A stretch of 34,776 nt of DNA, taken from Bacteroidota bacterium (lineage in GTDB: Bacteria; Bacteroidota; Bacteroidia; Bacteroidales; Prolixibacteraceae). Each line of letters starts with the position of its first letter. Positions within the stretch are counted from its first letter, which is position 1. Where the stretch lies: assembly GCA_030698405.1 (NCBI GenBank), contig JAUYMU010000129.1:1-34776 (forward strand), read 5' to 3'. Below the pieces are notes generated by a model. It made no database searches, was not told the origin of the DNA, and saw nothing but the letters and a program-made list of their open reading frames with translations. The translations under genes and the position numbers were made by a program. Shown piece by piece: positions 1,228-26,808 of the stretch.

Positions 1228-3078
1228 ATGCAAATGAGATTCAAAATTATTTTCATGTATCTTTTTGTTTCAGTATTAACAAGTGATTTTGCATTTGCCC
1301 AGCATACTTCTGCAAAAAAAGATTCCACCAAACTTTATGAAAATATTGAAACCTATTCCGAAAGGAGCAATTTTACGAAATTTATGTACCGGTTGTTTTT
1401 TAAGCCAATTGCACCAGTTCCGGATAAGAAAAAAGGTGGAAAAAAAATATACAAGAGACTGATTCAAAAACCATACAGCGCTTTTGAGGGAAAAATAATC
1501 AGGAAAATAAACATTGAAACACTCGATCCGTTTGGCAGTTCAATTGGCGACACCATTCATACATCGCTCAATTGGTTATCGAAAACCGGAAACAAGATGC
1601 ATATAAAATCTCATGGAATCACTATTCGAAACCTGCTGCTGATCCATCAAAACCAGCCGTTTGACTCGTTGCTTGTAAAAGAATCGGAACGATTGGTCAG
1701 AAGCAGGGAATACATCCGCGATGTTTCATTTTTCGTAAAATCTGCGTCAAAAGGCTCCGACTCCGTGGATGTTTTCATTCGTGCATTGGATATCTGGAGC
1801 ATTATTCCCGGTTTTTCAACTTCAACTTCACGCACCACTATTGGGTTAACCGATCAGAACTTCTTAGGCTTTGGCCATCAATTTGAGAACGAAATTACCC
1901 GCAACTATACAAAAGGCAATTATGCGTTCCACACCAATTATTCGATTCCCAATATCAGGAACACTTATGTAAGTACAACCCTGGATTATGCAATTGATGG
2001 TGACCGTTATTACAGTAAAAGCCTGACCATTGACCGCCCGTTTTTTTCGCCTTTTGCCAGATGGGCAGCCGGAGTAAATTTCATTCAGCAATTCAGCGAC
2101 GATTCGATACCCACAATCGTAAATACAATTTACAGGCAAAACCGGTATAAATTTAATGCTCAGGATTATTGGGCAGGAAGCGCTATACAACTTTACAAAA
2201 GCAATTCAGAATACAGCCGGACAACCAATTTTATTGCTGCTGCACGGTTTTTACGGGTTCGTTTTCTTGAAAAACCAAGTGAAATAATTGATCCTCAACA
2301 TTTTCTTTCAGATGAGAATTTCTATTTGGGAAGCCTTGGCGTTTCTACACGAAGATATGTTCAGGATAAATACATTTTTAAATATGGCATCACCGAAGAT
2401 GTTCCTGTCGGCAAGGTTTACAACCTGACAGGCGGTTATCAGGAAAAAAACAATGCCCGTCGGTTTTATTTGGGAGGACGTGTTTCCATGGGCAATTATT
2501 TTGATTGGGGATACCTGAGTTCCAATGTAGAATTTGGAACTTTTTTCCGGGGTTCACATGCCGATCAGGGAGTCATTAAGCTGGATGTCAATTATTTTAC
2601 AGGATTAATTGAAATTGGAAAGTGGAAATTCAGGCATTTTGTAAAACCGCATCTTACCGTTGGAATAAACCGCCTGGCGCTGGATAGTCTGACACTCAAT
2701 GATGAATATGGCCTGATTGGATTTCGCAGTCATGAACTGACAGGTACCAGTCGTTTTTTATTTACGGTACAGACACAGTCGTATGCTCCGTGGGATTTTA
2801 TCGGATTCAGGTTTGGTCCCTTTGTCAGCTATTCGATGGGAATGCTTGGCGACGACCTGTTGGGTTTTAAAAACAGCAAGGTTTATTCGCAGTTTGGCGT
2901 GGGAGTTTTAATCAAGAATGAGCATCTGGTGATGAATTCCTTTCAAATATCCATTTCATTTTATCCAAATATTCCAGGTATCGGTCGAAATATTTTTAAA
3001 ATGAATTCATTCTCGACGGACGATTTTGGCTTTCGGGACTTTGAAATTGGAAAACCGGGAGAAGCAGTATTTCGGTAA
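1228..3078 (+). CDS. outer-membrane beta-barrel protein of BamA/TamA type with POTRA-like domain
   Basis: A 616-residue protein. Residues 1-25 are a signal peptide ending FAFAQ. About 85-190 resemble a POTRA domain: an I.KINIETLDPFG strand, then a helix around a long Q.FDSLLVKESERLVRSREYI segment, then VDVFIRALDIWSI. From about 200 the sequence is alternating aromatic/polar strands of a barrel, starting with GLTDQNFLGFGHQF, a pattern typical of Omp85 barrels. The likely role is insertion or export of outer-membrane components; the specific substrate cannot be read. It follows the MCE gene after 66 nt and may belong to the same envelope unit. ATGs at 1228 and 1234 are both possible starts, and the second gives the more standard signal peptide MRFKIIFMYLF. 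It is followed by a strong hairpin terminator. Confidence 0.78.
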   Translation: MQMRFKIIFMYLFVSVLTSDFAFAQHTSAKKDSTKLYENIETYSERSNFTKFMYRLFFKPIAPVPDKKKGGKKIYKRLIQKPYSAFEGKIIRKINIETLDPFGSSIGDTIHTSLNWLSKTGNKMHIKSHGITIRNLLLIHQNQPFDSLLVKESERLVRSREYIRDVSFFVKSASKGSDSVDVFIRALDIWSIIPGFSTSTSRTTIGLTDQNFLGFGHQFENEITRNYTKGNYAFHTNYSIPNIRNTYVSTTLDYAIDGDRYYSKSLTIDRPFFSPFARWAAGVNFIQQFSDDSIPTIVNTIYRQNRYKFNAQDYWAGSAIQLYKSNSEYSRTTNFIAAARFLRVRFLEKPSEIIDPQHFLSDENFYLGSLGVSTRRYVQDKYIFKYGITEDVPVGKVYNLTGGYQEKNNARRFYLGGRVSMGNYFDWGYLSSNVEFGTFFRGSHADQGVIKLDVNYFTGLIEIGKWKFRHFVKPHLTVGINRLALDSLTLNDEYGLIGFRSHELTGTSRFLFTVQTQSYAPWDFIGFRFGPFVSYSMGMLGDDLLGFKNSKVYSQFGVGVLIKNEHLVMNSFQISISFYPNIPGIGRNIFKMNSFSTDDFGFRDFEIGKPGEAVFR

Positions 3079-3098
3079 TTGGCAAGTCAATGAAACAT

Positions 3099-3135
3099 AG
3101 AAGGCCGTCTCAAAACAAGTTTGAGACGGCCTTCT
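3099..3135. terminator. bidirectional hairpin terminator between convergent genes
   Basis: A perfect 16-bp stem (3099-3114 with 3120-3135; arm AGAAGGCCGTCTCAAA) closes a 5-nt loop. It sits between the barrel gene (+) and the cold-shock gene (-), so it can stop both. There is no long T-run on either side. Confidence 0.8.
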
Positions 3136-3163
3136 GTAAATGAATGTCTTATATAAAATTAGA

Positions 3164-3355
3164 CTAAGCCAGTTTTACATTAACTGCATTTAATCCTTTT
3201 TTTCCATCCTGAAGATCAAACGTTACTTCGTCGTTTTCTCTAACTTCGTCGTTTAAACCAGATACATGTACAAAATATTCTTTGTCTGATGCACTGTCTT
3301 TAATAAATCCAAATCCTTTTGAATCGTTGAAAAATTTTACTGTTCCTTTGCTCAT
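3164..3355 (-). CDS. cold-shock domain protein (CspA family)
   Basis: A 63-residue single-domain cold-shock protein. It starts MSKGTVKFFND and shows both RNA-binding motifs of the family: RNP1 (KGFGFI, about residues 12-17) and an RNP2 equivalent (EYFVHVSGL). Such proteins bind single-stranded RNA and DNA and act as RNA chaperones in the cytoplasm. The start at 3355 is chosen because the family begins with this methionine; an upstream in-frame extension to 3406 adds 17 hydrophobic residues with no homology. The 5' region is strongly AT-rich and probably a long untranslated leader, as is usual for csp genes. It is convergent with the barrel gene. Confidence 0.93.
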   Translation of the reverse strand: MSKGTVKFFNDSKGFGFIKDSASDKEYFVHVSGLNDEVRENDEVTFDLQDGKKGLNAVNVKLA

Positions 3356-3505
3356 GATAATTGTAATAAATAATAATATAAAATAAATGTCTCGCAAGAT
3401 ACGCATTTATATTTAATAATAGATTTTATTTCAATAATTTAATAAATATACATTTCTTTTAACTGACAGGGAAATGGCTTTATTAGTGTTTCTTATTTAT
3501 TCATG

Positions 3506-6658: not shown

Positions 6659-8704
6659 CTATTTCATCTTCGCAACCGCTTCTTCCGTGGCTTTCAGAAT
6701 GGCTTCGTTCGAAAGTGGCTTTCCGACTGCCTGTTTCATCCATTCGTTCGGCGTTAACTGCCCCAGTGCGAAAATGCGCAGCACTTCAGGAGCAAACTCG
6801 TGCGTTTTGAAATGTTCTTCCAGCTGGAAATGAATGAGGTGGCCGAATGCGTAATTCGGAAGGTACATCGGCGAGTTGATCATGTGCGAATAAATGCCCA
6901 GAATGGGTTGGTCTTTCATGCCGAAAACCGGCGCGTAATAAGTGTTCCAGATGTCTTTGGTGATTGTCAGAACTGCGTCGCGCAACTCAGCTGCCGTAGC
7001 TTTCGGGTTGGCATACAGCCATTGCCACATTTTCATGTCAACCACCGAAACGCCCATAATTTCGTAAAGCGACCAGAAAATATCCAGTGTTTTCAGGGTT
7101 TCCTTCTCCGGATTCGTGTCTTTCATATTCAGCAAAAACAAGTCTCTTTCCTGAAATACAAATGCCAGCGCTTCGGTAAAAGCAGTATTCGGAACGCCGT
7201 TGATCATGTAATTCGGAACATCGTTGAGCGAAATAGTTTGTTCCACATTGTGACCGAACTCATGAATGGCAATGTTGTAGCCTTTGTAATTCATGCCAGT
7301 GGCCGGAATACGGGTGCGCAAATGTGCTTTTTCGGCTTTCATCGAAGCGCCCCATGCGTGTCCTGAACCACGCGCCGGATCAACGGCAATGCGCGAGGCA
7401 AGGAATTCCGACTTTTCTTTGGTGAATCCCAGTTTCAGGAGCAGGTTTCCCAAATCGGCTTCGAGCGCCAGCGCGTTCGGGTATTTCTTTTCGGTGATCG
7501 AATTCAGCATTTCTTCGTTGATCGAACTGCGGGCTTTAAAACCGTCGTACCAGATGTCCCAGGGAGCCAGGTCGCGTCCCAACCGTTTTTTGATGATTTC
7601 GGCCACTTCCTTAATTTGCGGTGAAGCCAGAAATTCGGTGAACAGTTTTTCAACTTCAGGCTGCGGAACCTGCATTCCTGCCGAAAAAGCGCGCTGAATG
7701 GCGGTTGGCATGGTCGGGCTAAATTCATCGACAGCCTGAAAAACATGAAAGTTATTCAGAATCTGCTGATATCGTCCATCGGTTTCAGCCGGACTTTCAG
7801 TTTTTGCACCTGTAACAAGTACTTCGTTGGTAATCGGGTTCCAGTCCTGATTTCCGGAGTTAATCACCACTTTCGGAATCGACTGATCGATGATACGCTG
7901 CATGACCTGATAGATCAGCCCCTGTTTTTCGTAGCCCACTTCCTTGTTGGAATAGTTGGCTTTTATTTCGTCGCGAAGGTTCCAGTGACTAAGCAAAACC
8001 ATGTCAGCAGGAAATAGTTTTTGGTTGTCTTTGTTCAGCAAATTGCCCATGTAAATGTTGTAATCGGCAATGTAGGCATCGCCTTCAGCCGAAACTTTCG
8101 ATTCCTGCTGAACCAATTCCGAAGGTACTCGTGAGTTGAATACATCGCCCATCCGTGCAAAACCCCATTCCAGCGGCGACCATTCCGACGCGAGTTGATT
8201 CTTTTCTTCGGTTGAATAATACGGAAAGTTGAGGGCAACGATGAAAGCGATTTTGTTGCCGTAAAAATCGTTCATCAGGTGGGCGCCAGGATTGTAACCT
8301 GCAAACAGTGGGTCGATAGGCAGAACTTCGCCCTTCTGAAGCTGCACATTCTCCTGCATATCGAGTGCCAGTTTGTTGAAATGTCCGTAAAGCGATTCGA
8401 AATATTCCGAAAAACGGGTGAAAGTAGCTTCCTTTTTTGCAGGATCGGCTATGAAATTTTCGGTACAGAACGTAATAAATTCTTCCGCAGTTCCATCCGC
8501 ATCGCGCCAAAGAGAAGCGGCATGTTTGACTCCTTTTTCGGTCAGGGCAGCATCACTGCCCGGATTTTTTTCACTGATGGCTTTAATGGCCGCGAAAACG
8601 GTTGCTTCGGAAATTCCGACCAGAGCGCCTTGTTTCTTTTCGGTTTTCTGACAAGCTGGAATCATAACAAAACAGGCTAAAATGAAAATGAAATTTTTGA
8701 TCAT
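6659..8704 (-). CDS. zinc metallopeptidase lipoprotein with HEFGH-x25-E motif
   Basis: 681 residues from the ATG at 8704. The signal peptide ends MIPAC, a lipobox. The catalytic block reads HEFGH followed, after 25 residues, by E in TEALAF. That HExxH-x25-E spacing is the gluzincin arrangement of family M3; the rest does not obviously follow a well-known M3 enzyme, so substrate and sub-family stay open. It is expected to be anchored on the periplasmic or outer face and to act on peptides. An upstream in-frame extension to 8797 lacks a signal peptide at its start and is rejected. This gene is visibly richer in G+C than its neighbours, which gives long spurious open frames on the opposite strand and may point to different ancestry. 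Confidence 0.75.
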   Translation of the reverse strand: MIKNFIFILACFVMIPACQKTEKKQGALVGISEATVFAAIKAISEKNPGSDAALTEKGVKHAASLWRDADGTAEEFITFCTENFIADPAKKEATFTRFSEYFESLYGHFNKLALDMQENVQLQKGEVLPIDPLFAGYNPGAHLMNDFYGNKIAFIVALNFPYYSTEEKNQLASEWSPLEWGFARMGDVFNSRVPSELVQQESKVSAEGDAYIADYNIYMGNLLNKDNQKLFPADMVLLSHWNLRDEIKANYSNKEVGYEKQGLIYQVMQRIIDQSIPKVVINSGNQDWNPITNEVLVTGAKTESPAETDGRYQQILNNFHVFQAVDEFSPTMPTAIQRAFSAGMQVPQPEVEKLFTEFLASPQIKEVAEIIKKRLGRDLAPWDIWYDGFKARSSINEEMLNSITEKKYPNALALEADLGNLLLKLGFTKEKSEFLASRIAVDPARGSGHAWGASMKAEKAHLRTRIPATGMNYKGYNIAIHEFGHNVEQTISLNDVPNYMINGVPNTAFTEALAFVFQERDLFLLNMKDTNPEKETLKTLDIFWSLYEIMGVSVVDMKMWQWLYANPKATAAELRDAVLTITKDIWNTYYAPVFGMKDQPILGIYSHMINSPMYLPNYAFGHLIHFQLEEHFKTHEFAPEVLRIFALGQLTPNEWMKQAVGKPLSNEAILKATEEAVAKMK

Positions 8705-8882: not shown

Positions 8883-10058
8883 ATGATTTATATATCAGAT
8901 ATTTGCAAGCTTATGATTGTTGAAGAACGAGTTCTCGGGTACATTGCAAAAGCCCAAACGGAAGATGTTAGTCCATTTTATATTTACGATATTCAGGCCA
9001 TTCGGAAAAAATGTGCTGATTTCAGTTCAATTCCATACCGGAATAAGTCTATTCACTTTGCCACCATGGCCAATATCAATCCTGAATTTTTAGCGGTTGT
9101 GAAGTGTTCGAACCTGAATGTTTTTGTAAACTCACCGAAGCATCTTGAAAGTGTTAAAGAAGCCGGATTTAAAGGATCAGAGATAGTTTTCACCTCCTCC
9201 GCCATGTCGGAAAATGTGATGAAAAAGATTTTTGCTGAGAATTTGCAGGTCAATCTTGATTCTGTCGGGCAGCTTGAATTATGGCAGCGTTTATTTCCTG
9301 AAAAAGCGGTTGGAATTCGCTGCAACATTGGCGGAATGGTCAAACCGTATTCTACCCGTGCCGGTTTTTTCCTGGGCAAAGAAAGCAGGTTGGGATTAAC
9401 CGTCGATGAAATTAAAGGAATCGCAAACAAGCAAATTATCAAGGGATTGCATTTGTATGTTGGCACCGATATTTTTGATGCCAACTATTTTATCGGATGT
9501 TACCGGGCTCTGATCGAACTTTCGTATGATTTCCCTGAGCTTGAATATTTGAATTTCGGTGGCGGTTTTGGCGTTTCGGAGCAGGGAGATGAATTCTTTG
9601 ACATCAAAACTTACGGCGAAAAAGTGAGCGCCCTGATGGACGAAGTTTCGTTGAAAAGAGGCAAATCAATACAAATGATTCTGGAACCCGGACGAATAAT
9701 TGGCGGGGAAGCGGGTTGTTTTGTTTGTCAGGTGACGGACGTGAAAGAAAGGGAAAATCAGGTTTTCGTAGGGGTAAACGCATCAACGGCACAGTTTACC
9801 CGACCGTTGATTTATCCTGAATCTGCCAATCATCCGGTTGTAATTATCAGGAATGGTGCTTTGCTGGAAACAGAAAATCAGGTAAATACCACCATTTATG
9901 GCTGCTCAACGTATTCGCGCGATATCTTCTGTAAAGGCAAACAATTGCCGCAGCTTTCCATTGGCGATTTGGTAATTTTTGCCAATTCCGGTTCGTATTG
10001 CGCTTCATCGTATTGCGAATTTTTGGGCTTTGATAAACCGAAAGAGATTTTCTTATGA
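8883..10058 (+). CDS. PLP fold-type III (DapDC/ODC-like) decarboxylase homologue lacking the PLP lysine
   Basis: 391 residues with the two-domain layout of diaminopimelate/ornithine decarboxylases: an alanine-racemase-like barrel at about 30-290 and a C-terminal beta domain at about 295-391. Conserved landmarks are SRLGL (168-172), H190..VGTD, the glycine loop GGGFG (226-230), EPGR (268-271), a Cys (GCSTYSRD, Cys341) and GSY (Tyr372). The motif that normally reads YAxKAN, with the lysine that binds PLP, is FATMAN (59-64), so Met62 stands where the Schiff-base lysine should be. The protein may bind PLP without a covalent bond, do other chemistry, or be a regulatory pseudoenzyme. An alternative start is the ATG at 8913. 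It precedes the radical SAM cassette on the same strand and may work with it. Confidence 0.8.
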   Translation: MIYISDICKLMIVEERVLGYIAKAQTEDVSPFYIYDIQAIRKKCADFSSIPYRNKSIHFATMANINPEFLAVVKCSNLNVFVNSPKHLESVKEAGFKGSEIVFTSSAMSENVMKKIFAENLQVNLDSVGQLELWQRLFPEKAVGIRCNIGGMVKPYSTRAGFFLGKESRLGLTVDEIKGIANKQIIKGLHLYVGTDIFDANYFIGCYRALIELSYDFPELEYLNFGGGFGVSEQGDEFFDIKTYGEKVSALMDEVSLKRGKSIQMILEPGRIIGGEAGCFVCQVTDVKERENQVFVGVNASTAQFTRPLIYPESANHPVVIIRNGALLETENQVNTTIYGCSTYSRDIFCKGKQLPQLSIGDLVIFANSGSYCASSYCEFLGFDKPKEIFL

Positions 10059-10147
10059 AACGAACCCCGATGTATCAGGGTCACTCTTTATAAACAGGTT
10101 AAACAATGGGAAATTAATAACAAGCGGGCCAACATTAATTCATAGTC

Positions 10148-10331
10148 TTAAAAAACCTTATTTTTAAAGAAAAAACCTCAGTAGAAAGGTCACGAAAATA
10201 CGACCAAACCTTATTACCTTATTTATGAAAGTTGAATACAAAAGACAATCATCCCAAAATAAGGTAATAAGGTTGTAGAATATGAGCATGAGTTTTCTAC
10301 TGAGGTTGCCTTTTAAAATAATGTTTTAAAA
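10148..10331. repeat. nested-palindrome element, copy 1 (MITE-like or structured RNA)
   Basis: Three concentric inverted repeats. The outer pair (10148-10169 with 10310-10331) is imperfect. The middle pair (10174-10187 with 10294-10307; AACCTCAGTAGAAA) is a perfect 14 bp. The inner pair (10207-10224 with 10257-10274; AACCTTATTACCTTATTT) is a perfect 18 bp. A second copy lies at 15189-15359. This element fills most of the 315-bp gap between the PLP-like gene and the cassette; nothing else was seen in that gap. Confidence 0.85.
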
Positions 10332-10373
10332 AAGTCAATGTTACTTGAATACAATTAATAACAATATTTTCGA

Positions 10374-11465
10374 ATGATCCCGGAATTTTTAGAAGGAAAA
10401 TCAGCCTATAAAATCTTCCAAAGTGTTGGAAAGACTGTTTACAAGGACAATCCGTTCTACAGGGGAACCGAGTCGGGAATTGAAAAGCTTTTGTTGAACG
10501 AAAATTCGGCTTTCAGAAATCATTCTGACATTAAAATGTTTGTATTGAGAGATGGAAATCAGCTGGTGGCGCGATTTGCAGTCATTCACGATTACTGGTT
10601 GGACGCGTGTCTTCAACTTTCATTTTTTGAGGCCCTTGCCGATTTAGGCGATATTTTTCCCATCATCAAAAAGGAGATTCAAAAGCACTATCCAACCTGC
10701 AAAAAGGTAATCGTCGGAATCAATGGGCATCTGAATTACGGAGCGGGGTTTTTGCTGAATAGGTTCGACGAAGTGCCGCTTTTCGGTTTGCCTTATACAC
10801 CGCGTTATTATCCTGAATATTTTAAAGGATTGACTCAGAAGAAGATGTTCTCTTACCGGTTTTCGATGGAAGTCTATCACCAATGGGCCAATTCTTACCC
10901 TGCATCCCGGCAACTGGACGGGCTAACCGTTCGGTACATGGACAAAAAAAACATACAATCAGAAAGCGCCATTTACACCAAACTGAACAACGAAGCATTC
11001 ATAGCGCATCCATACTGGGTCGATCGCGAAGAAGCGGAGGATTTGGAACTCTTCAAACCGTTTCGTTATTTGCTCGACAATGAAAATCTGATCATTGCCG
11101 AAATGAATGGGGAACCCATCGGTTTTTACTTTTGGTATCCCGATTTTAATCAGTTGGTACCTTCGAAACGTGATTTTAATCTCTGGGATATCATCAATTA
11201 CCGAATTTTGAACAAGGAAATCGACACGTTCCGTTTTACTGAAATCGGGATCATCCCCAAATATCGGAGAAGTCCGGTGGCGTTGGCTTTGATCAGCAAA
11301 TCGCTTCCGAAACTGATTGAAAAAGGATACAAATATTGCGAAGGCGGTTTTATTTTCGAGGAGAACAAAGCGTCGATTGCTTTTGTAAGCCGGATTCTGG
11401 AACGCTGTTACGGCGAAAAACCAGAACCTTACAGAGAATTTGCCGTTTATGAAACAAATCTATGA
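10374..11465 (+). CDS. YghO-like GNAT-fold protein, function unknown
   Basis: 363 residues, cytoplasmic, no signal peptide. The N-terminal part (DNPFYRG, about 25-30; FVLRDGNQLVARFAVI, about 58-73; SFFEALAD) and the centre (GxNGHLNYGAGFLLNRFDEVP and YTPRYYPEYFKG) follow the pattern of the YghO family. The C-terminal half (about 190-360) contains a second GNAT-like segment with EIGIIPKYRRSPVALAL, a region resembling the acyl-CoA pyrophosphate loop. No family member has a function I can name. It is the first gene of a four-gene run; its stop overlaps the next start by 4 nt (ATGA), so translation is probably coupled. Element copy 1 ends about 42 nt upstream of its start. Confidence 0.7.
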   Translation: MIPEFLEGKSAYKIFQSVGKTVYKDNPFYRGTESGIEKLLLNENSAFRNHSDIKMFVLRDGNQLVARFAVIHDYWLDACLQLSFFEALADLGDIFPIIKKEIQKHYPTCKKVIVGINGHLNYGAGFLLNRFDEVPLFGLPYTPRYYPEYFKGLTQKKMFSYRFSMEVYHQWANSYPASRQLDGLTVRYMDKKNIQSESAIYTKLNNEAFIAHPYWVDREEAEDLELFKPFRYLLDNENLIIAEMNGEPIGFYFWYPDFNQLVPSKRDFNLWDIINYRILNKEIDTFRFTEIGIIPKYRRSPVALALISKSLPKLIEKGYKYCEGGFIFEENKASIAFVSRILERCYGEKPEPYREFAVYETNL

Positions 11466-12472
11466 ACCAGTATATTGAGAAAAGATTAGTGGCCAAAGAT
11501 TTGCCAGACGAGTGGAATCTGCTGGCGGAAAACTATTTTCAGAAACGGGAATTTTTAAGCTATACTGAAAAATATAACCCTTGCGTGCAACGATATTATT
11601 GCCTTTATGAGCACGATAAACTCCTTGCTGCTGCCATTATCTATTCTTTGCGCCTCGATTTATTTACCTACCTCCGGATTAAAAGTCCGCTAAAAATGAA
11701 CATTGCCGGAATTCCCTGTTCTGTTTCTTCTTCAGGAATATTTGGCAGCAAGGAACACAAAGAACAGCTTAAAAATTTCATCTTCATCAATGAAAAAGGC
11801 TTTGTACTCTTTCTGAATCTGGATGAAAAACCCCTTCATGAAACAAATGCAACGGGTAAAACTCTGCCAACCATTCTGCTAAAAAATACCTTCAAATCGT
11901 GGGAAGAATACCTCGTTCATTTACGGTCGGATTACCGCCGGAGGTTGCAGAAAATAACCAAAACCGGCTCCGGCACTGAACTGATTAAAACCGCTTGTTC
12001 TGTTTTCGACGAAGAAATGTACCGGCAGTATTTGCAGGTTTATTCGAAAAGTACCGCAAAACTCGAAAAATTAAGTTTTTCCTTTTTTAAGAATCTGCCT
12101 CCGGAATTTCATCTTGTAGCTTGTCGCAAAAACGGGCGGACAATCGGTTGGAACATCCTTTTACAGAGCGACCGTTCGCTGTTTTTCTTTTTGGGCGGCA
12201 TCGACTATCAGCAGAACGCCGAAAATCAAACCTACCTGAAACTATTAACCAACATTGTTGCTGAAGGAATCGTGCAAGGTGTTGATCTGATTGACCTTGG
12301 GCAAACTGCTGAAATTCCGAAAATGCGGTTGGGCGGGCAAGCTCAGACAAAATACATGGAGGCCAGGCACAGCAATTCCCTTTTTCATCGCCTGCTTAAA
12401 TTCAATGAAAAATCGCTGGAATACAAAAAAGAGATTTTCAATCACCATGTAATGAAGGAGATAAATTTATGA
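11462..12472 (+). CDS. BioF2/FemAB-like acyltransferase (GNAT fold)
   Basis: 336 residues, no signal peptide. The C-terminal half carries the pattern of Acetyltransf_6/FemAB-like proteins: W..YL..LRSDYRRRLQKI (about 155-172), a helical middle with YLQVYSKSTAKLEKL, the strand block LVACRKNGRTIGWNILL, then GGIDYQQN and DLIDLGQT....MRLGG at the end. FemAB-type proteins form amide bonds with aminoacyl or acyl donors, and the acceptor here is unknown. Both ends overlap neighbours by 4 nt (11462-11465 and 12469-12472). That arrangement implies it works stoichiometrically with the YghO-like protein and the radical SAM enzyme that follows. Confidence 0.68.
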   Translation: MNQYIEKRLVAKDLPDEWNLLAENYFQKREFLSYTEKYNPCVQRYYCLYEHDKLLAAAIIYSLRLDLFTYLRIKSPLKMNIAGIPCSVSSSGIFGSKEHKEQLKNFIFINEKGFVLFLNLDEKPLHETNATGKTLPTILLKNTFKSWEEYLVHLRSDYRRRLQKITKTGSGTELIKTACSVFDEEMYRQYLQVYSKSTAKLEKLSFSFFKNLPPEFHLVACRKNGRTIGWNILLQSDRSLFFFLGGIDYQQNAENQTYLKLLTNIVAEGIVQGVDLIDLGQTAEIPKMRLGGQAQTKYMEARHSNSLFHRLLKFNEKSLEYKKEIFNHHVMKEINL

Positions 12473-13839
12473 GGATATTGTTTGTTCGTCCCGACAACTC
12501 GCCTGAAACCATTGGCTTGCAGCATCTGATGGTGGTTGAACCTTTGGAACTGGAAATTCTGTACACACTGATTCGCGAACACGATACGGCGGAAATTATC
12601 GACATGCTGCTCGAAAAACGGAGCATTGAATATTTCATCAGGAAGTTCAATCCCGATGTGTTTTGCGTAACCGGCTACATCACCAATGTTTCAAAAATGA
12701 TTGAATACTGCCAGATTGCAAAATCAATTAATCCGGAAATTGTCACCATTGTTGGAGGTGTTCATTGCGAAGTTTGTCCTGAAGATTTTGAGAGCGAACA
12801 CATTGATTTCAGGGTGATTCGGAATGCAGCCGTTACTTTTACCGGCTTGCTGAATTACATTGAATATCAGCAGGAACTTCCTTCAGGAATAGCAAAAAAA
12901 GGCGAAAATATTATTCCTGCAACTCTTCCGCCGTTCAATTTTAAAATACCCATCGCCAACCGTCAGTCGGTAAAAAAGTATCGCGACAATTACTTCTACA
13001 TTTTTAGCGATCGGGTCGCACTGATGAAAACTTCGTTTGGCTGTCCGTTCAATTGTAGCTTTTGCTTTTGCACGGTTATTACACAGGGCAAGTATTTCCA
13101 GCGCGATATGATGGAAGTTATGCAGGAATTGGAACAATTGGAGGAAAAAGAGATATACATTGTGGACGATGATTTTCTGGCGGATAAAACATGGCTCGAG
13201 CTGTTTATTCAGGAAGTAAAAACGCGAAAAATTGCAAAAAACTATTTGGTTTACGGACGTGCCGATTTTATTGCCAACAATGCGGATTTAATGAAGGAAC
13301 TCGCTGGAATTGGCCTGAAAACCGTGATCGTTGGTTTCGAAAGTTTCTTTGAAAAAGACCTTGAAAAATACAATAAGAACACCAAGGTCGGTTTGTACAA
13401 ACAAACCATGCAAGTGCTGAAAGCCAACAAAATAGATTGTTTTGCCACGATGATTGTGTCGCCCGATTGGGACAAAGCTGACTTCAAAAAAATGGTTCAA
13501 TCGGTGAAAGAGCTTGGAATTCACTACGTCAATCTTCAACCGCTGACACCATTGCCAAAAACGAATTTTGAATCGCCGGTTGAATCTTTGCTCATCAAAA
13601 GAACCGAATACGACAAATGGGATTTGGCACATGTCAGCATTCAACCAACGAAAATGAGCGTGGCCGAGTATTACAAAGAGATTCTGAAAGCGTATAATTC
13701 AATCCTTTTTCAGCCCGCAATTTTGCTGAAATACCTTGTTAACAATTCGCCCAAAATGTTGTACCGAATGTTGATGGGCAGCATCAGGGTGGGAAATCAG
13801 TACAAACGAAAAATAAAGGAAGCCTCCAGATATGCCTAA
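12469..13839 (+). CDS. B12-binding-type radical SAM enzyme 1
   Basis: 456 residues. The N-terminal ~130 residues look like a cobalamin-binding Rossmann domain (RILFVRPDN; DVFCVTGYI; IVTIVGGVH), but the classical DxHxxG histidine motif is not evident, as in BchE-type enzymes. The usual GEGE segment before the linker is replaced by RNAAVTF. The radical SAM core starts at SFGCPFNCSFC, giving the Fe4S4 ligands C192, C196 and C199 (CX3CX2C); an extra Cys201 follows. DDDF occurs downstream in the barrel, as in related enzymes with a DDNF or similar strand. The C-terminal tail is helical and basic. Such enzymes do methylation, cyclisation or C-C bond chemistry; this substrate is unknown. The stop overlaps the next start by 8 nt. 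Confidence 0.85.
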   Translation: MRILFVRPDNSPETIGLQHLMVVEPLELEILYTLIREHDTAEIIDMLLEKRSIEYFIRKFNPDVFCVTGYITNVSKMIEYCQIAKSINPEIVTIVGGVHCEVCPEDFESEHIDFRVIRNAAVTFTGLLNYIEYQQELPSGIAKKGENIIPATLPPFNFKIPIANRQSVKKYRDNYFYIFSDRVALMKTSFGCPFNCSFCFCTVITQGKYFQRDMMEVMQELEQLEEKEIYIVDDDFLADKTWLELFIQEVKTRKIAKNYLVYGRADFIANNADLMKELAGIGLKTVIVGFESFFEKDLEKYNKNTKVGLYKQTMQVLKANKIDCFATMIVSPDWDKADFKKMVQSVKELGIHYVNLQPLTPLPKTNFESPVESLLIKRTEYDKWDLAHVSIQPTKMSVAEYYKEILKAYNSILFQPAILLKYLVNNSPKMLYRMLMGSIRVGNQYKRKIKEASRYA

Positions 13840-15154
13840 GATTTTATTTATCCAACCCACTCAATATGCCGAAAATGGCAAATTGTGCAAGCAGTCGAAA
13901 ATTCACCTGCCCGGACTGGCATTTCCGCTTTTGGCGGCTTATACCCCAAAACACTGGGAAGTTGAATTGTGCATCGAAGTAATTGATGTGGTGAATTTTG
14001 ATTCGGATGCCGACATTATTGGAATTGGCACCATGGGACATGCCACTTTTCGGGGAATCGAGATTGCCAAAGAGTTTAAAAAGCGAAACAAAACAGTGGT
14101 AATGGGCGGTTACATGGCTTCGATTGCCAAAGAGGAAGCCATCAAATATGTGGATTCGGTGGTGGTGGGTGATGCTGAGATTTCGTACCTGAAAATGCTG
14201 GAAGATTTCGAAAAGCATGGAAAATTGCAGCCATTTTACGATTATCCGATTACGAAATTAGAGAACTTGCCCGTTCCCAGATACGACTTGCTTCTGAAAA
14301 AGCAGATTGGCGACATGTTGCCGGTTCAGGCCGGAAGAGGGTGCACTTTTACCTGTTCTTTTTGTTCCATCGCCTGTTTGTACGAAGGAAAATATTTGTT
14401 TCGACCGGTCGATGAAGTTATCAGGGACATTAAAGCGGTGAAAGAGTTGGGATTCAAACGGTTTTATTTAATCGACGACAACATCGTTTCCAACCCGTCG
14501 TACCTGAAAGAACTCTGCGAAAAAATCGCTCCGTTGAAGATGCACTGGGCAAGCCAGTGTGCGCTGCACCTTGCAAAAAAGACCGATTTGCTCAAACTGG
14601 TAGTGAAATCGGGTTGCGATTTAATGAGTTTTGGCGTTGAAAGCATTGATCAGGAATCGTTGAACAGTCTGGAAAAACCTTGGGTGAAAGTTAGCGAACA
14701 CGCAGAAAATTTCAGAATACTAAGCGAAGCCGGAATTACCGTCAGCACCGAAATGATTGTCGGAACTGACTTCGACACGGAGGAATCCATTCGCGCCACT
14801 TTTGACTTTATACATCTGAATAAAGTGCCCATTCCACGTTTTTACATCCTGACTCCAGTTCCCGGAACAGCACTATTCAGGCAATTCAAGGAACAGGGAC
14901 GTTTGCTGACGGAAGATTTGAAAGAGTTTAACGGGGCGCAATGCGTGCATATTCCTGATAAAATCAGTCCTGAAAATCTGACACGAATGTACTGGTGGCT
15001 CAATAATCGGATCTTTTCCTTGAAAAGTATTGTTCACAGGGTTTTGCTCAACAAGTACCTTTGGAGAAACCCTAAAATGTTGCTGTTCGCTCTTGGTGTA
15101 AATTTCCACTATCGCTATTATGTGAGAAAGAAGGTAACTCCGAATATTTTTTAA
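13832..15154 (+). CDS. B12-binding-type radical SAM enzyme 2
   Basis: 440 residues. The N-terminal cobalamin-like fold (KILFIQPTQ; DIIGIGTMGHATF; VVMGGYMAS) has its segment before the linker as VVVGDAEISYL, close to the common GE(G)E form. The cluster motif is GRGCTFTCSFCS with ligands C171, C175 and C178 (CX3CX2C). The barrel contains FYLIDDNI and GVESIDQ, typical of the B12-radical SAM group. The C-terminal region, with TPVPGTALFRQFKEQGRL and a helix ending in RVLLNKYLWRNP, recalls the DUF4070-like tail. It is clearly a paralogue of the previous gene and the last gene of the cassette. No function can be named. Element copy 2 follows 35 nt after the stop. Confidence 0.86.
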   Translation: MPKILFIQPTQYAENGKLCKQSKIHLPGLAFPLLAAYTPKHWEVELCIEVIDVVNFDSDADIIGIGTMGHATFRGIEIAKEFKKRNKTVVMGGYMASIAKEEAIKYVDSVVVGDAEISYLKMLEDFEKHGKLQPFYDYPITKLENLPVPRYDLLLKKQIGDMLPVQAGRGCTFTCSFCSIACLYEGKYLFRPVDEVIRDIKAVKELGFKRFYLIDDNIVSNPSYLKELCEKIAPLKMHWASQCALHLAKKTDLLKLVVKSGCDLMSFGVESIDQESLNSLEKPWVKVSEHAENFRILSEAGITVSTEMIVGTDFDTEESIRATFDFIHLNKVPIPRFYILTPVPGTALFRQFKEQGRLLTEDLKEFNGAQCVHIPDKISPENLTRMYWWLNNRIFSLKSIVHRVLLNKYLWRNPKMLLFALGVNFHYRYYVRKKVTPNIF

Positions 15155-15188
15155 GAAACATCAAATTGGATCAACCTTAATACGATGT

Positions 15189-15359
15189 CTTAAAAAACCT
15201 TATTTTTGAAGAAAAAAAACTCAGTAGAAAGGAAATAACTAACATAACCAAACCTTATTACCTTATTAATATGACTATCAACCCAAAATAAGGTAATAAG
15301 GTTGTGGGCTGAAGCGTGGATTTTCTGCTGAGGTAACCGTTTAAAATAAGGTTTTAAAG
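15189..15359. repeat. nested-palindrome element, copy 2
   Basis: Same architecture as 10148-10331. Outer arms AAAACCTTATTTT (15194-15206 with 15343-15355) are perfect. Middle arms CTCAGTAGAAA (15220-15230) pair with 15322-15332, with one G-T pair. Inner arms AACCTTATTACCTTATT (15251-15267 with 15287-15303) are perfect over 17 bp. Arms are conserved between copies while loop sequences differ. Confidence 0.85.
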
Positions 15360-15528
15360 AAAAGGCGATCAATATTAATTCGATATGGGATCACTCAAAA
15401 AGATTTCTTTCTTATTACTTAAATCCAGATTTTTTTAAGCAAACATTGAAACTGTTTGTTCAATAACAAAGAGAATCCTGTCTGCGATTATTAGAAAAGC
15501 AGTAAAACCTAATTTAAAGACAGAACAA
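15360..15528. other. intergenic region without a recognisable gene
   Basis: The remainder of the 374-bp gap between the cassette and the acidic protein gene. It is AT-rich and I see no ORF, RNA or clear promoter; it presumably holds the promoter of the gene at 15529. Confidence 0.5.
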
Positions 15529-21435: not shown

Positions 21436-24400
21436 TTAATCCTTGTATTCGTCCCAGCTTTTTATCGACAAATCCTCAATTTTGTATTTACAGAATGCAT
21501 AAATAAACGCGCTGGCCACACGGGCGTTCGTGATGAGCGGAATACTGTAATCAATCGCGCTGCGGCGGATGGTGTAACCGTTGCTGATTTCGCGGCTGGT
21601 ATGGTCTTTAGGAATGTTGATCACCAGATCGATCTTTTTTTCCTTGATTAATTCAAGCGTATTCGGATGCTTGTCGGTTTCATCGGGCCAGTAAACCCGT
21701 GTCGATTCTATTCCGTTATCGCTTAAAAATGTTTGTGTTCCGCCTGTTGCAAACAAATTGAATCCACGCTCGGAAAGTAATTTTGCACTTTGAATCAGCT
21801 CTACTTTCGATCGTGCAGGACCGGACGAAATCAGGATGTTTTTCTTCGGAATGGTGTAACCCACCGAAAGCATCGATTTCAGGATTGCTTCGTAAAAGTT
21901 TTCGCCAATACAACCCACTTCTCCGGTTGACGACATATCGACACCCAGCACAGGATCTGCATTCAGCAAACGTGCAAAAGAGAATTGTGGCGCTTTTACA
22001 CCTACGTAATCAAGTTCAAACAGCGATTTGTCCGGCTTCTGGAAAGGCGCATCCAACATTACTTGCGTGGCAATTTCTATCAGGTTGTATTTCATTACTT
22101 TAGATACAAATGGGAAACTACGCGATGCACGTAAATTACATTCAATCACCTTGATGTCGTTGTCTTTTGCCAGCAACTGCATGTTGAAAGGCCCGGTAAT
22201 ATTGAGTTCTTTGGCAATCTGTTTGGCTATTTTCTTAATCCGGCGAATGGTTTCAACATACAATTTCTGAGGTGGAAAAACGATGGTCGCATCGCCCGAA
22301 TGCACTCCGGCAAACTCAACGTGTTCCGAAATCGCATAAGCCACCACTTCACCGTTTTTGGCTACTGCGTCGATCTCTATTTCTTTGGCCTGTTCAATAA
22401 ATTCTGAAACAACCACCGGATGTTCTTTCGAAACATTGGCGGCCAGTGTCAGGAAATGTTGCAACTGGTCCCGGTTCGAAACCACATTCATAGCTGCACC
22501 AGAAAGCACGTACGAAGGGCGGATCAAAACCGGAAATCCAACTTCATCCACAAAAGTATAAATGCCTTCGATGGTTGTCAGTTCCGACCAGCGTGGCTGG
22601 TCAATTCCCAGCGTATCGCAGAGTGAACTGAACTTTTTGCGGTCTTCGGCACGGTCGATATTTAGCGGCGAAGTTCCCAGAATAGGCACATTCTGACGGT
22701 GCAGTTTCATGGCAAGGTTGTTCGGAATCTGGCCGCCCATCGAGAGAACCACGCCTTTCGGTACTTCCAGATCAACAATGTCCATCACCCGCTCAAAAGT
22801 CAATTCGTCGAAATACAGGCGGTCGCAGGTATCGTAATCGGTACTCACCGTTTCCGGATTGTAATTGATCATGATCGAGCGGTAATTTTCCTTGTGGATC
22901 GTCGTGATTGCGTTAACGCTACACCAGTCAAATTCAACCGAACTTCCGATGCGGTAAGCTCCCGAGCCCAAAACGATCACCGATTTGTCATCCCTCGGAA
23001 ATTCTATGTCGTGTTCGTTTCCGTTATAGGTGAGGTACAGGTAATTCGTTTGCGCCGGATACTCGCCGGCCAGCGTGTCGATTTGTTTTACTGAAGGTAG
23101 AATGTTTTTGCTTTTACGCCATTCGCGCACCTTCAGCAAATCGCCGTTAATTTCTTTGTTCGAAGATTTCAGCACCAAACGGGCAACCTGAAAATCGGAA
23201 AATCCTTCTTTTTTAGCCTGAAGCAAAAGCGAATCATCGAGAGTCGGCAACGAATTAACTTCTTCGAGTTTATTTTTTGTTTTGTGAATGTTTTGCAGTT
23301 TTTGCAGAAACCAGCGGTCAATTTTGGTCTTTTCGTAGATTTCATCTACCGAATAACCTTTGTTGAAAGCTTCCGCAATGGCAAAAATACGACGGTCGGT
23401 CGGGTGAATCAATTCTTCATCAATTTGCTCAATGGTAATTTCTTCCTTGTTGGCCACAAAACCGTGCATTCCGATTCCAACCATCCGAATTCCTTTCTGA
23501 ATAGCTTCTTCGAACGAACGACCAATTGACATGATTTCGCCGACAGACTTCATCGAACTTCCGAGGTTTTTCGATACTCCTGAAAATTTATTCAGATCCC
23601 AGCGCGGAATTTTACAAACGATATAATCGAGTGCAGGTTCGAAGGCGGCGGTGGTCACTTTGGTAACCTGGTTATTCAGTTGGTGCAATCCGTAACCCAA
23701 TCCGAGTTTTGCAGCCACAAAAGCCAGCGGATAACCGGTTGCTTTCGATGCCAGTGCCGAAGAGCGCGACAGACGGGCGTTTACCTCGATAACGCGGTAA
23801 TCTTCCGAATGCGGATCGAGCGCATATTGTACGTTACATTCGCCAACAATTCCGATGTGACGGATAATTTTGATGGCCAGTGCACGTAGTTTGTGATATT
23901 CTGAATTTGAAAGCGTTTGCGAAGGAGCAACCACGATACTTTCGCCGGTATGAATTCCCAACGGGTCGAAGTTCTCCATGTTACAAACCGTGATGCAATT
24001 GTTGAAACGGTCACGAACCACTTCGTATTCAACCTCTTTCCAGCCTTTGATCGATTCTTCAACCAAAATCTGAGGTGAATAGGTAAATGCTTTTGATGCC
24101 AGTTCTTTCAATTCCTCATCGTTCGAGCAAAAACCGCTGCCCAGTCCACCGAGTGTGTATGCTGCCCGGATAATGATTGGATAACCAACGATTTTAACTG
24201 CGGCATACGCTGCTTCAAGATTTAAACACGCAATACTTCGGGGTGTCAAAACGTTAATTTCCGCCAGTTTCCCTGAAAATATCTCGCGGTCTTCGGTGTC
24301 AATAATCGACTGAACCGGAGTGCCCAATACTTTCACATTGTATTTTTCCAGAATTCCCTGCCGGAACAAGGCAACACCACAGTTCAGTGCAGTCTGTCCG

Positions 24401-24669
24401 CCAAAAGCCAGCAGAATGCCATCCGGTTTTTCCTTGATAATAACCTGTTCAACGAAAAATGGAGTCACCGGCAAAAAATAAATCCGGTCGGCAATGTCCG
24501 TCGAAGTCTGGATGGTTGCAATATTCGGATTGATCAGGATGGTTTCAATATTCTCTTCCTTCAGCGCTTTCAAAGCCTGTGAACCCGAATAGTCAAACTC
24601 TCCGGCTTCGCCGATTTTCAGCGCTCCCGAACCCAGTACAATTACTTTTTTAATGTCTTTATTTATCAT
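21436..24669 (-). CDS. carB: carbamoyl-phosphate synthase, large subunit
   Basis: 1077 residues, the full family length. The first ATP-grasp half opens [30 protein letters not shown]. The second half begins near residue 553 with [23 protein letters not shown], the internal duplication that defines CarB. The C-terminal ~135 residues ([41 protein letters not shown]) form the allosteric MGS-like domain. The enzyme uses ammonia from CarA, bicarbonate and two ATP to make carbamoyl phosphate for arginine and pyrimidines. It lies downstream of carA with a 108-bp gap that holds repeat D. Confidence 0.97.
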   Translation of the reverse strand: [1077 protein letters not shown]

Positions 24670-24681
24670 GATGCTTTAAAG

Positions 24682-24707
24682 TTTCAAGTTCCAAATTTCA
24701 AGTTCCA
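24682..24707. repeat. short direct repeat TTTCAAGTTCCA x2
   Basis: Two copies of TTTCAAGTTCCA (24682-24693 and 24696-24707) in the carA-carB gap, right upstream of the carB start. Low-complexity intergenic sequence; no function is implied. Confidence 0.6.
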
Positions 24708-24748
24708 GGTTTGTGCTTCAGATTTTGCAATTGCCTTGATCTGGCACA

Positions 24749-24777
24749 AAGTCCCCCTTGGGGGATTTAGGGGGCTT
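24749..24777 (+). repeat. C-rich/G-rich intergenic hairpin, copy D
   Basis: AAGTCCCCCTTGGGGGATTTAGGGGGCTT: CCCCC/GGGGG stem plus a distal GGGGG block. It abuts the stop of carA and lies inside the carA-carB unit, so it could lower or tune carB expression relative to carA. Confidence 0.78.
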
Positions 24778-25866
24778 TTACTTTTTTCTTTTGTATTCAA
24801 TCACATTGTTGATGAAATCGTCGAACAAAAATTCCGTGTCAACCGGTCCGCTGGCGGCTTCAGGGTGAAACTGGGTGGAGAAGAATGGTTTGGTTTTGTG
24901 CCGGATTCCTTCGTTGGTTTGGTCGTTCACATTGGTAAACAAAGGTTCCCAATCTTCAGGCAAGGTTTTGGTATCCACAGCAAAACCGTGGTTCTGCGAA
25001 GTGATGAAACATCGGTCGGTTCCCTGTAGCAAAACCGGTTGATTGTGGCTGCGGTGACCGAATTTCAGCTTATAAGTTTCAGCTCCGGCAGCACGTGCCA
25101 GCAACTGATTTCCCAGGCAAATTCCCATGATTGGTATTTCGGCAATCATTGTTTTGCGGATGTTTTCAACCGTCGCATCGCACAAGGCAGGGTCGCCCGG
25201 GCCGTTCGACAAGAATATTCCGTCAAAATCTTCACCGCTGAAATCGTAGTCCCACGGCACAACTATTACTGTCGCATTTCGGTCGAGCAAGCAGCGGATG
25301 ATATTGTATTTCACACCGCAATCGACTAAAACCACGCGGTGTTCTCCGTTTCCAAATACTTGTACTTTATCGGTACTTGCAATGGCAACCAGGTTTTCCT
25401 GATTCGGATCGTAAAAGTCGATCACTTCGTCGTCAAACTCGATTTTACCAAGTAACGAACCTTTAACTCTGATAATTTTTGTCAAAGCACGCGTGTCGAT
25501 CCCGAACAAACCCGGCACTTTGTTTTCTTTCAGCCAGTCGCCCAAACTTTTAATAGCGTTCCAGTGACTGTATTCAAACGAATAATCAGAAACAATTAAA
25601 CCGGAGATATGAATTTTATCCGATTCATAAAACTCATACAAACCTTGCTCTTTCGAGTCACTTGGCACACCATAATTTCCAATCAGGGGAAAGGTTGAAA
25701 CGAGTATCTGACCCGTATATGAAGGATCTGTTAAACTTTCGGGATATCCGGTCATGGCAGTATAAAAAACCACTTCTCCGGCTACCGATTTTTCATATCC
25801 GAACGATTTTCCTTCAAATGTTGTCCCGTCTTCCAGAATCAACCTGGCTTTTCTTAGTTGTGTCAT
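24778..25866 (-). CDS. carA: carbamoyl-phosphate synthase, small (glutaminase) subunit
   Basis: 362 residues. The N-terminal CPSase domain starts with ARLILEDGTTFEGKSFG and contains GEVVFYTAMTGYPESLTDPSY. The C-terminal class I glutamine amidotransferase domain has the nucleophile in IMGICLGNQ (Cys250) and the His-Glu pair in FHPEA (His334, Glu336). It releases ammonia from glutamine for CarB. It precedes carB on the minus strand and is divergent from argR. Its leader holds a 43-codon ORF and an intrinsic terminator ending 19 nt before the ATG, so expression is probably controlled by attenuation, with ArgR as a second possible input. Confidence 0.97.
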   Translation of the reverse strand: MTQLRKARLILEDGTTFEGKSFGYEKSVAGEVVFYTAMTGYPESLTDPSYTGQILVSTFPLIGNYGVPSDSKEQGLYEFYESDKIHISGLIVSDYSFEYSHWNAIKSLGDWLKENKVPGLFGIDTRALTKIIRVKGSLLGKIEFDDEVIDFYDPNQENLVAIASTDKVQVFGNGEHRVVLVDCGVKYNIIRCLLDRNATVIVVPWDYDFSGEDFDGIFLSNGPGDPALCDATVENIRKTMIAEIPIMGICLGNQLLARAAGAETYKLKFGHRSHNQPVLLQGTDRCFITSQNHGFAVDTKTLPEDWEPLFTNVNDQTNEGIRHKTKPFFSTQFHPEAASGPVDTEFLFDDFINNVIEYKRKK

Positions 25867-25883
25867 CGTTGCTATGCTATTTA

Positions 25884-26015
25884 TTAAAAAAAATGCGTTT
25901 GACTACGGCTGTAGGGCAAACGCATGGTTGTTATTTTAAACAAACTTTCTTTCCTATGTGTCTTCGTAATTTCAACCTGGTGCTTTTCAAGTTTCAATTC
26001 GTTTGTGTTTTTCAT
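25884..26015 (-). CDS. putative carA leader peptide (43 aa)
   Basis: ATG at 26015-26013, stop TAA at 25886-25884, 17 nt before carA. The peptide begins MKNTNELKLEKHQVE and ends MRLPYSRSQTHFF. Its last 13 codons coincide exactly with the terminator hairpin and T-run, so a ribosome reaching the stop would unfold the terminator. It has three Arg codons (AGG at 21, CGT at 32 and 37). The layout resembles pyrL, the 44-codon leader of E. coli pyrBI. Expression is inferred from position only. Confidence 0.55.
   Translation of the reverse strand: MKNTNELKLEKHQVEITKTHRKESLFKITTMRLPYSRSQTHFF
25886..25925 (-). terminator. intrinsic terminator/attenuator in the carA leader
   Basis: Minus-strand arms ATGCGTTTG and CAAACGCAT (9 bp), with an inner CTAC/GTAG helix, are followed by a run of eight T. 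No gene lies upstream on this strand (argR diverges), so the terminator can only act on carA transcription. A CAAACG word early in the leader (26000-26005) could pair with CGTTTG of the 5' arm (25917-25922) as an antiterminator. Confidence 0.8.
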
Positions 26016-26024
26016 TGTCGGCCA

Positions 26025-26032
26025 CAAAAATA
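26025..26032 (-). promoter_or_regulatory. possible -7 box for the carA transcript
   Basis: TATTTTTG on the minus strand matches TAnnTTTG and lies 9 nt before the leader-peptide ATG. The -33 side is an undistinguished T-run, so this is tentative. Confidence 0.35.
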
Positions 26033-26070
26033 TAATTTTTTTCTGAAAAAAAAGTCTGTTTTATTTATTT

Positions 26071-26109
26071 AATGCATATTTTTGCATCGAAAATGTATAA
26101 ATATACAAA
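26071..26109. promoter_or_regulatory. tandem ARG boxes (ArgR operator)
   Basis: Two palindromes with centres 21 bp apart: ATGCATATTTTTGCAT (26072-26087) and TGTATAAATATACA (26094-26107). As 18-bp boxes (26071-26088 and 26092-26109) they are separated by exactly 3 bp, the standard geometry for an ArgR hexamer. The second box touches the argR ATG. A TATTTTTG box (26077-26084) matching the Bacteroidota -7 consensus for argR lies inside box 1, so bound ArgR would block its own promoter. Confidence 0.65.
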
Positions 26110-26592
26110 ATGAAGAATCGCACCAAAAGACAGCTTGCAATTAAACAGGCAATTCTCAGTGGCCGGATCAGCAGTCAGGATGAGCTTTTGCACATCATGA
26201 AAGATCAGGGCTTCGAGTTGACGCAGGCTACCTTGTCGCGCGATTTGAAAATTTTAAAAGTTGCAAAAGTTTCCGATCAGGCATTGGGATATGTATATGT
26301 TATTCCTGAAGGATTGAATACTGAAAACCAACGCGAAAATTCACGGATAAATTTTCTAGCCGATGGTTTTCGCGATTTGCAGTTCTCCGGAAATCTTGCT
26401 GTTATGCGAACAATGCCCGGCTATGCAAGTAGTCTGGCCGCAGTAATTGATAATTCAGAACCGTATGAAATCATTGGAACAATAGCCGGTGACGACACCA
26501 TTCTAATCATCATGCGCGAAGGAGTTACCCACAGCGACCTGATCAACAGTCTGATACTGATTATGCCAAAACTGGAAGACAAGCTGGGATGA
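26110..26592 (+). CDS. argR: arginine repressor
   Basis: 160 residues. The winged-helix N-terminal domain carries the recognition motif TQATLSRDL (38-46). The C-terminal hexamerisation/arginine-binding domain has PGYASSLAAVID and GTIAGDDT (123-130), the family signature. With arginine bound, it represses or tunes biosynthetic genes. It is the first gene of the rightward arginine cluster and lies divergent to carAB; the tandem palindromes just upstream suggest autoregulation and possibly control of carAB. Confidence 0.95.
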   Translation: MKNRTKRQLAIKQAILSGRISSQDELLHIMKDQGFELTQATLSRDLKILKVAKVSDQALGYVYVIPEGLNTENQRENSRINFLADGFRDLQFSGNLAVMRTMPGYASSLAAVIDNSEPYEIIGTIAGDDTILIIMREGVTHSDLINSLILIMPKLEDKLG

Positions 26593-26648
26593 GAAAGTGG
26601 TCGGTTTTCAGTGGTCATTGTTCAGTCGCAGTTGGCAGTGGATGAATG

Positions 26649-26717
26649 GTTGTCATGTTGTCAAAATTTGTTGTCAGTTGTCAAAAATATCCTTTGCCGT
26701 TTGCCTTTAGGCAACGG
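26649..26717. repeat. GTTGTCA repeats and a small hairpin after argR
   Basis: Four copies of GTTGTCA (26649, 26657, 26670, 26677) are followed by a hairpin CCGTTTGCC/GGCAACGG (26697-26717). The 192-bp gap between argR and the acyltransferase gene holds nothing else I recognise. Confidence 0.55.
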
Positions 26718-26785
26718 ACATGAGATACAAAATAGTAACACAGGAAAAGGAAGATTTGTGAGAAGATTTTGAGATTCCTGAAAAA

Positions 26786-26799
26786 TGAAAAATTATTCA
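26786..26799. promoter_or_regulatory. possible single ARG box
   Basis: TGAAAAATTATTCA fits TGAATwwwwATTCA with one mismatch. It precedes the preferred start of the acyltransferase gene (26809) by 9 nt. No second box at 21 bp is convincing. Confidence 0.35.
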
Positions 26800-26808
26800 A
26801 AAACGAAA

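Follow-up and report, generated by a model that had tools for sequence, protein, structure and literature searches.

A conserved five-gene block of paired transferases, paired radical-SAM proteins and a lysine-free decarboxylase fold: a candidate operon for an amide-linked lipid

A five-gene block and its distribution

The window, a 34,776-nucleotide stretch of a Bacteroidota genome (contig JAUYMU010000129.1), contains five open reading frames, all on the + strand and spanning positions 8883-15154, which we term DC, G1, G2, R1 and R2 (Table 1). The last four overlap by 4, 4 and 8 nt and keep their order in relatives, in agreement with the tight coupling proposed in a preliminary description of this DNA, and profile matches bear out the protein families named there. 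Comparison with relatives suggests that DC starts at the ATG at 8913, giving a protein of 381 aa. DC and G1 are separated by 315 nt (10059-10373) containing an inserted hairpin repeat element; in a sister genome whose G1 is 92% identical (L047), the two genes overlap in ATGA. GC content is 41.2% in the block and in its flanks alike, a lack of difference that speaks against a recent foreign island. Two flanking genes were tested in three genomes of the same family, and in none did they lie on one contig.

Table 1 Features of the block and its surroundings in the window.
Feature	Positions	Strand	Length	Assignment
DC	8883..10058	+	391 aa	Diaminopimelate/ornithine-decarboxylase-fold protein
Hairpin repeat	10130..10335	.		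Dispersed repeat, inserted in the DC-G1 gap; outside the pathway
G1	10374..11465	+	363 aa	GNAT-fold N-acyltransferase, YghO / bacterial ceramide synthase superfamily
G2	11462..12472	+	336 aa	Acetyltransf_6 / FemAB-like acyl- or aminoacyl-transferase
R1	12469..13839	+	456 aa	B12-binding radical-SAM protein
R2	13832..15154	+	440 aa	Radical-SAM protein, weak B12-binding domain
Hairpin repeat, second copy	15172..15361	.		3' of R2; outside the pathway

The five-gene block is a real, conserved unit. Other genomes carry homologues of all five genes in identical order, and because of this shared order the arrangement lies far beyond chance. Scanning one genome per species by pattern identified 58 G1 loci in several phyla (as named by submitters), in bacteria that are only distantly related and for the most part uncultured. 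Carriers with records not labelled as metagenome bins include Lachnospiraceae bacterium AB2028 and G41 and Petrocella sp. FN5. G2 is present in 51 of these loci and a B12-type radical-SAM gene in 52, so that the possibility raised earlier, that the genes are not conserved as neighbours, clearly fails. DC, which had been assigned to the set from its position, indeed belongs to it: it lies 5' of G1 in 31/58 loci, with another open reading frame intervening in two of them. A search of 395 genomes sampled from the phylum, with the alignment of DC as query and a threshold of E<=1e-60, matched the window's own genome alone.

The front of the operon varies among carriers. DC is replaced by a pair of genes, one for an acyl-AMP ligase and one for an acyl carrier protein (ACP), in 15 of the 16 loci titled Lachnospiraceae; the sixteenth locus is cut. 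Neither ACP nor ligase was found in any DC-type locus among the 58, nor in the eight other loci from Bacillota and Calditrichota that lack DC. No description of the gene set was found in the literature searched, of which the broader listings were sampled only in part; a search combining five cluster terms and one pairing "radical SAM" with YghO each returned no match. To the extent of that search, the earlier statement that no described pathway with this exact set is known stands.

Transferases, radical-SAM proteins and a lysine-free fold

G1 is homologous to E. coli YghO over its full length (hhalign 99.5%, 355 columns). It scores below the cut-off against Acetyltransf_1 (0.0027), and a PDB profile search returned only weak GNAT matches. 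Its identity to YghO is only 18-22%, and closer YghO relatives are encoded elsewhere in its own genome; for both reasons, the acceptor of G1 may differ widely from that of YghO. The window's G2 likewise falls below the Acetyltransf_6 cut-off (3.5e-4), and 27 of 35 aligned G2 members match this family at E<=0.01, the best at 2e-11.

R1 carries a radical-SAM domain (3e-15) and a B12-binding domain (2e-14), both above cut-off, and its Cx3Cx2C motif is invariant in all 24 aligned sequences. Its profile neighbours are HpnR, the nearest (154 bits versus a cut-off of 650), and BchE. R2, the most conserved member of the set (mean column identity 67%), has a clear radical-SAM domain (3e-16) and a weak B12-binding domain (24 bits against a cut-off of 32); its nearest profiles are PhpK, ApyD, HpnJ and BchE, with scores far short of each cut-off. 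The profile neighbours of the two proteins include non-lipid enzymes (PhpK, AprD4 and ApyD).

DC has the two-domain architecture of fold III and matches PF02784 (5e-17) and PF00278 (1e-15). In all 32 copies compared, however, Met62 replaces the Schiff-base lysine of the AxKAN motif, Tyr192 replaces the stacking histidine and Thr343 replaces the catalytic donor cysteine; in DapDC/ODC the cysteine comes from the other subunit, and the histidine stacks on PLP. Met62 aligns with lysine in all five PDB alignments printed. The cofactor anchors (the GGG loop, EPGR and a tyrosine), predicted to bind the phosphate and the pyridine ring, are kept in 32/32 copies. Two rows from the window's own genome were dropped from one of the residue comparisons: L105, whose longest open reading frame is not DC, and L116, whose SYKTN lysine stretch was misaligned. 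Judged by these residues, DC is very probably no decarboxylase, and we reject the reading of DC as an ordinary one; amine supply by decarboxylation is therefore unlikely. The gene is under purifying selection, with a dN/dS of 0.10 and an open reading frame in all 32 copies counted, which rules out a decaying pseudogene. We also considered a lysine supplied in trans by G1, and rejected it on finding no lysine invariant among 41 G1 sequences; invariant lysines do occur in R1 and R2.

A proposed pathway and its alternatives

Four features point towards lipids. Besides the ceramide-synthase homology of G1 and the ligase and ACP of Lachnospiraceae loci, one divergent variant of the cassette carries an extra gene for phosphatidylserine (PS) decarboxylase, and MMPL exporters lie inside or beside the cassette in three relatives. 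The latter two rest on few loci: at a tblastn threshold of E<=1e-5, PS decarboxylase was matched in 0/58 loci and MMPL in 2/58. These exporters also narrow the earlier observation that no transporter is present, which is true of the window's block but not of a few relatives. Together the four features point to a lipid with an amide linkage, modified through radical-SAM/B12 chemistry. The lipid-linked amide suggested in the preliminary description is thus supported indirectly, while the lipid itself is something we infer. We consider it an evenly balanced question whether the five genes form a compact operon that makes an amide-linked lipid or a molecule resembling one.

In such an operon, G1 would acylate an amine-bearing precursor at its amino group with a fatty acyl chain taken from ACP or CoA as the acyl carrier, a step modelled on its YghO/ceramide-synthase relatives, and G2 would perform a second transfer, either acyl or aminoacyl. 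R1 and R2 would use SAM radicals to methylate or re-link unactivated chain carbons, with cobalamin used probably by R1 and perhaps by R2. DC would not decarboxylate: keeping a pocket for a B6-type phosphate and ring without the Schiff-base lysine, it probably works in tight coupling with G1 and keeps the amine substrate or a B6 vitamer in place. At the operon front in Lachnospiraceae, DC gives way to an AMP-binding acyl ligase with a dedicated ACP; since neither was found in DC-type loci or in the eight other loci without DC, an acyl-ACP donor is proposed there only by analogy. Searches with E. coli Spt (tblastn, E<=1e-5) gave no serine palmitoyltransferase match in the window, the 58 loci or four further ones, so that this enzyme does not supply the amine there; SPT-like proteins are encoded elsewhere in the window's own genome, away from the cassette.

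A different pathway, which we consider unlikely, would resemble an exosortase-A-associated or butirosin-like toolkit whose product is no membrane lipid. An amino acid would be loaded on a carrier protein, the DapDC-fold protein would act on or bind the carrier-bound amino acid, and FemAB/GNAT-type transfer to a glycan or small molecule and radical-SAM tailoring would follow. The residues missing from all 32 DC copies speak against it, as do the membership of G1 in a lipid N-acyltransferase superfamily and the failure of DC and the ACP/ligase pair to occur together in any of the 58 loci. We think it quite improbable that the product is a small, soluble natural product (an antibiotic-like compound or a signal), built on an amino-acid scaffold that receives methyl groups from the two radical-SAM enzymes and acyl groups from the two GNATs. 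Many B12 radical-SAM enzymes do act in pathways of this kind (PhpK, ApyD, TokK and CysS are among the profile and PDB matches) and the distribution across phyla is patchy, but the scan of window genes recognised none for an NRPS, a PKS or a precursor peptide, and the four lipid pointers weigh the other way. Finally, a block that decorates hopanoids, with R1 as the C-3 methylase, is very unlikely: HpnR is the best NCBIfam profile of R1 and the window's own genome has a partial squalene-hopene-cyclase C-terminal match (58 bits against a Pfam cut-off of 26, positions 49-282 of 319), but the HpnR score is far under its cut-off and no cyclase match (E<=0.001) occurs in the other six of seven cassette genomes, two of which are 85-86% complete.

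Returning to the amide-lipid operon, its conservation across phyla leads us to expect that its product is selectable and most probably resides in the membrane. If that product is a lipid, it would be a new biomarker and would show B12/radical chemistry put to a new use, and DC poses the question of which functions stay open to a PLP-fold protein that has lost its defining residue. A bolder proposal, which we regard as doubtful, takes the cassette as the mark of a new class of amide lipids in bacteria, with radical-SAM-built carbon chains and a spread over many phyla. DC would then be the first lysine-free fold-III B6 protein selected for function, binding either PMP or an already formed adduct of PLP and an amine (or using a lysine from a partner subunit) and presenting it to G1.

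Relation to known systems

LysA, BtrK and the exosortase-A decarboxylase (TIGR03099) differ from DC at the lysine, histidine and cysteine positions in 32/32 copies, and the window's DC scores under every NCBIfam cut-off listed. R1 shares with HpnR, BchE, HpnJ and PhpK-type enzymes the domain order of B12-binding followed by radical SAM, and the Cx3Cx2C motif, invariant in R1 and R2, is common to both sides; R1 and R2 nevertheless lie far below the curated cut-offs listed and in a different gene neighbourhood, and R2 is set apart by its weak B12 domain. Acetyltransf_6 and FemAB-like transferases share their family with most G2 members, the window's G2 being just under the cut-off; its PDB profile search gave chance-level matches, with no solved homologue found. 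A further parallel is the bacterial ceramide synthase system (bCerS / aca / YghO, with AasR, AcpR and Spt), to which G1 is linked as a full-length homologue and in which, as in the Lachnospiraceae cassettes, an N-acyltransferase is paired with an acyl-AMP ligase and a dedicated ACP. The cassette differs in the low identity of G1, in loci without a serine palmitoyltransferase match, in having DC rather than ligase and ACP in the window's clade, and in the addition of G2 and the radical-SAM enzymes.

Gene content and conservation of the block

All five open reading frames of the preliminary description were confirmed on one strand, and the last four overlap by 4, 4 and 8 nt. Pfam and NCBIfam profiles place DC in the DapDC/ODC fold, G2 among Acetyltransf_6/FemAB-like proteins, and R1 and R2 among radical-SAM enzymes, with a B12-binding domain that is clear in R1 and weak in R2; G1 gives a weak GNAT match. 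No block protein reached the cut-off of any NCBIfam family listed, so no NCBIfam name can be assigned to any of the five. Further along the window, carAB on the minus strand faces a run of arginine and proline genes.

Positions of features in the window
Feature	Position	Notes
DC	8883-10058	lysine-free; probably a pseudo-decarboxylase partner
Hairpin repeat, copy 1	10130-10335	in the DC stop/G1 start overlap; ~200-bp dispersed element
G1	10374-11465	YghO-like GNAT
G2	11462-12472	Acetyltransf_6/FemAB-like
R1	12469-13839	radical-SAM, B12-binding
R2	13832-15154	radical-SAM, weak B12-binding domain
Hairpin repeat, copy 2	15172-15361	the two copies flank the four-gene part
carAB (minus strand) and arginine/proline run (plus strand)	21436-34531	the run: arginine repressor, argininosuccinate synthase, semialdehyde dehydrogenase, aminotransferase, P5C reductase, amino-acid kinase

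Among 295 genomes of the order, four close G1 relatives (62-66%) lie in the same gene order as in the window; in one of these genomes, G264, R2 stands alone on a separate contig. G264 and G171 carry an ORF of 222-223 aa between DC and G1. Orthologues of R2 (E<1e-150) and of G2 (E<1e-50) are confined to one identical set of 7 of the 295 genomes, with both cut-offs chosen after the match lists were known. In two additional genomes (G090, G124) the set is divergent or broken, and the three remaining genomes sampled from the family to which the window belongs have no R2 or G2 matches. The cassette is apparently undescribed; a literature search, with subscription literature mostly outside its reach, returned no description among the matches listed.

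A dispersed hairpin repeat (z -8.6 vs shuffles) lies within the 315 nt that separate DC from G1 in the window. Searching the genome with the block gave 28 matches: the block itself and 27 short matches, all to the hairpin part of the query. In the sister genome, whose G1 is 92% identical, DC and G1 overlap in ATGA; in the window each end of the insert is bordered by ATGA, which kept both reading frames open. The arrangement looks as if insertion of the repeat had duplicated ATGA. The GC content of the block equals that of its flanks.

Alternative front ends across species

When G1 was used for a pattern scan across species, each represented by one genome (84,980 according to the tool's description), 96 stretches were returned, 58 of which encode G1 relatives; 54 of these 58 records are titled MAG, and phylum labels follow the submitters' naming. 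Counted from mechanical ORFs, G2 is present in 51 of the 58 loci, a B12-type radical-SAM gene in 52, and DC upstream of G1 in 31. In 29 of these 31, DC either overlaps G1 or is no more than 120 nt away; in L055 and L062 another ORF separates the two. Some loci (e.g. L065, L069, L070) have a radical-SAM gene between G1 and G2, and L057 ends in G2. Four loci (L072, L076, L077, L080) form a mini-cassette of DC, G1 and a SPASM-type radical-SAM gene, with no G2-R1-R2.

Upstream DC is missing from 27 loci: 24 from Bacillota or Calditrichota, L048 (which begins at G1), L086 (which has no ligase either) and L078, a DC-less mini-cassette in which G1 is accompanied by part of a SPASM-type radical-SAM gene. 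Of the 16 loci titled Lachnospiraceae (L088-L103), 15 carry an AMP-binding ligase and an acyl carrier protein ahead of G1, and the sixteenth (L100) is cut by a contig end; in L097 only a ligase fragment remains, at the contig start. L084, titled Epulonipiscium and assigned to Lachnospiraceae by the tree's taxonomy, has no carrier protein in the ~480 bases before G1. None of the 58 loci was found to combine DC with ligase/carrier protein, and ligase and carrier protein are both absent from the eight remaining DC-less Bacillota/Calditrichota loci. A class-I methyltransferase (F8) is found in 13 of 58 loci, leaving out a 17-bit match in L076.

Two recurring upstream gene contexts, F15-F18 (L088, L091, L095, L099) and F6 runs (L089, L090, L092, L096, L098), lie beside the same cassette, which suggests that in Lachnospiraceae it occupies two or more genomic positions. 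In an R2 tree (24 rows), nine Bacillota/Calditrichota rows form a group apart from the 15 DC-bearing ones (support 100/100). A quick G1 tree (41 rows) groups the DC-bearing loci with L078 (29 rows; SH-aLRT 99) and does not unite Bacillota.

A possible lipid product

We infer the reactions and product of this conserved cassette, and an amide-linked lipid appears the likeliest product, with about an even chance of being correct. YghO homology and neighbouring phosphatidylserine decarboxylase and MMPL genes are pointers to a lipid rather than proof. In the divergent cassette L139 (genome G188), a phosphatidylserine decarboxylase gene (2731-3429) overlaps G1 by 4 nt, and a second copy lies elsewhere in that genome. 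In L063 the gene immediately before DC encodes an MMPL exporter, and L138 has one next to its cassette; in L073 an MMPL-type relative (6717-8660; 27% to the L063 exporter) lies between R1 and R2. Against a lipid link, tblastn found Spt and phosphatidylserine decarboxylase in 0 of 58 loci each, and MMPL in 2 of 58.

YghO homologues in the window's genome include a tandem pair (G000:C81:55924-58245) and a further one (C138:8097-9209). Because YghO relatives closer than G1, as well as SPT-like enzymes, are encoded outside the block, G1 looks like a specialised paralogue. The alignment of G1 to E. coli YghO spans the full length of G1, and the yghO gene adjoins fatty acyl-AMP ligase, ACP and serine palmitoyltransferase genes; PMC9386255, PMC11324152 and PMC11087976 describe the YghO family as ceramide N-acyltransferases.
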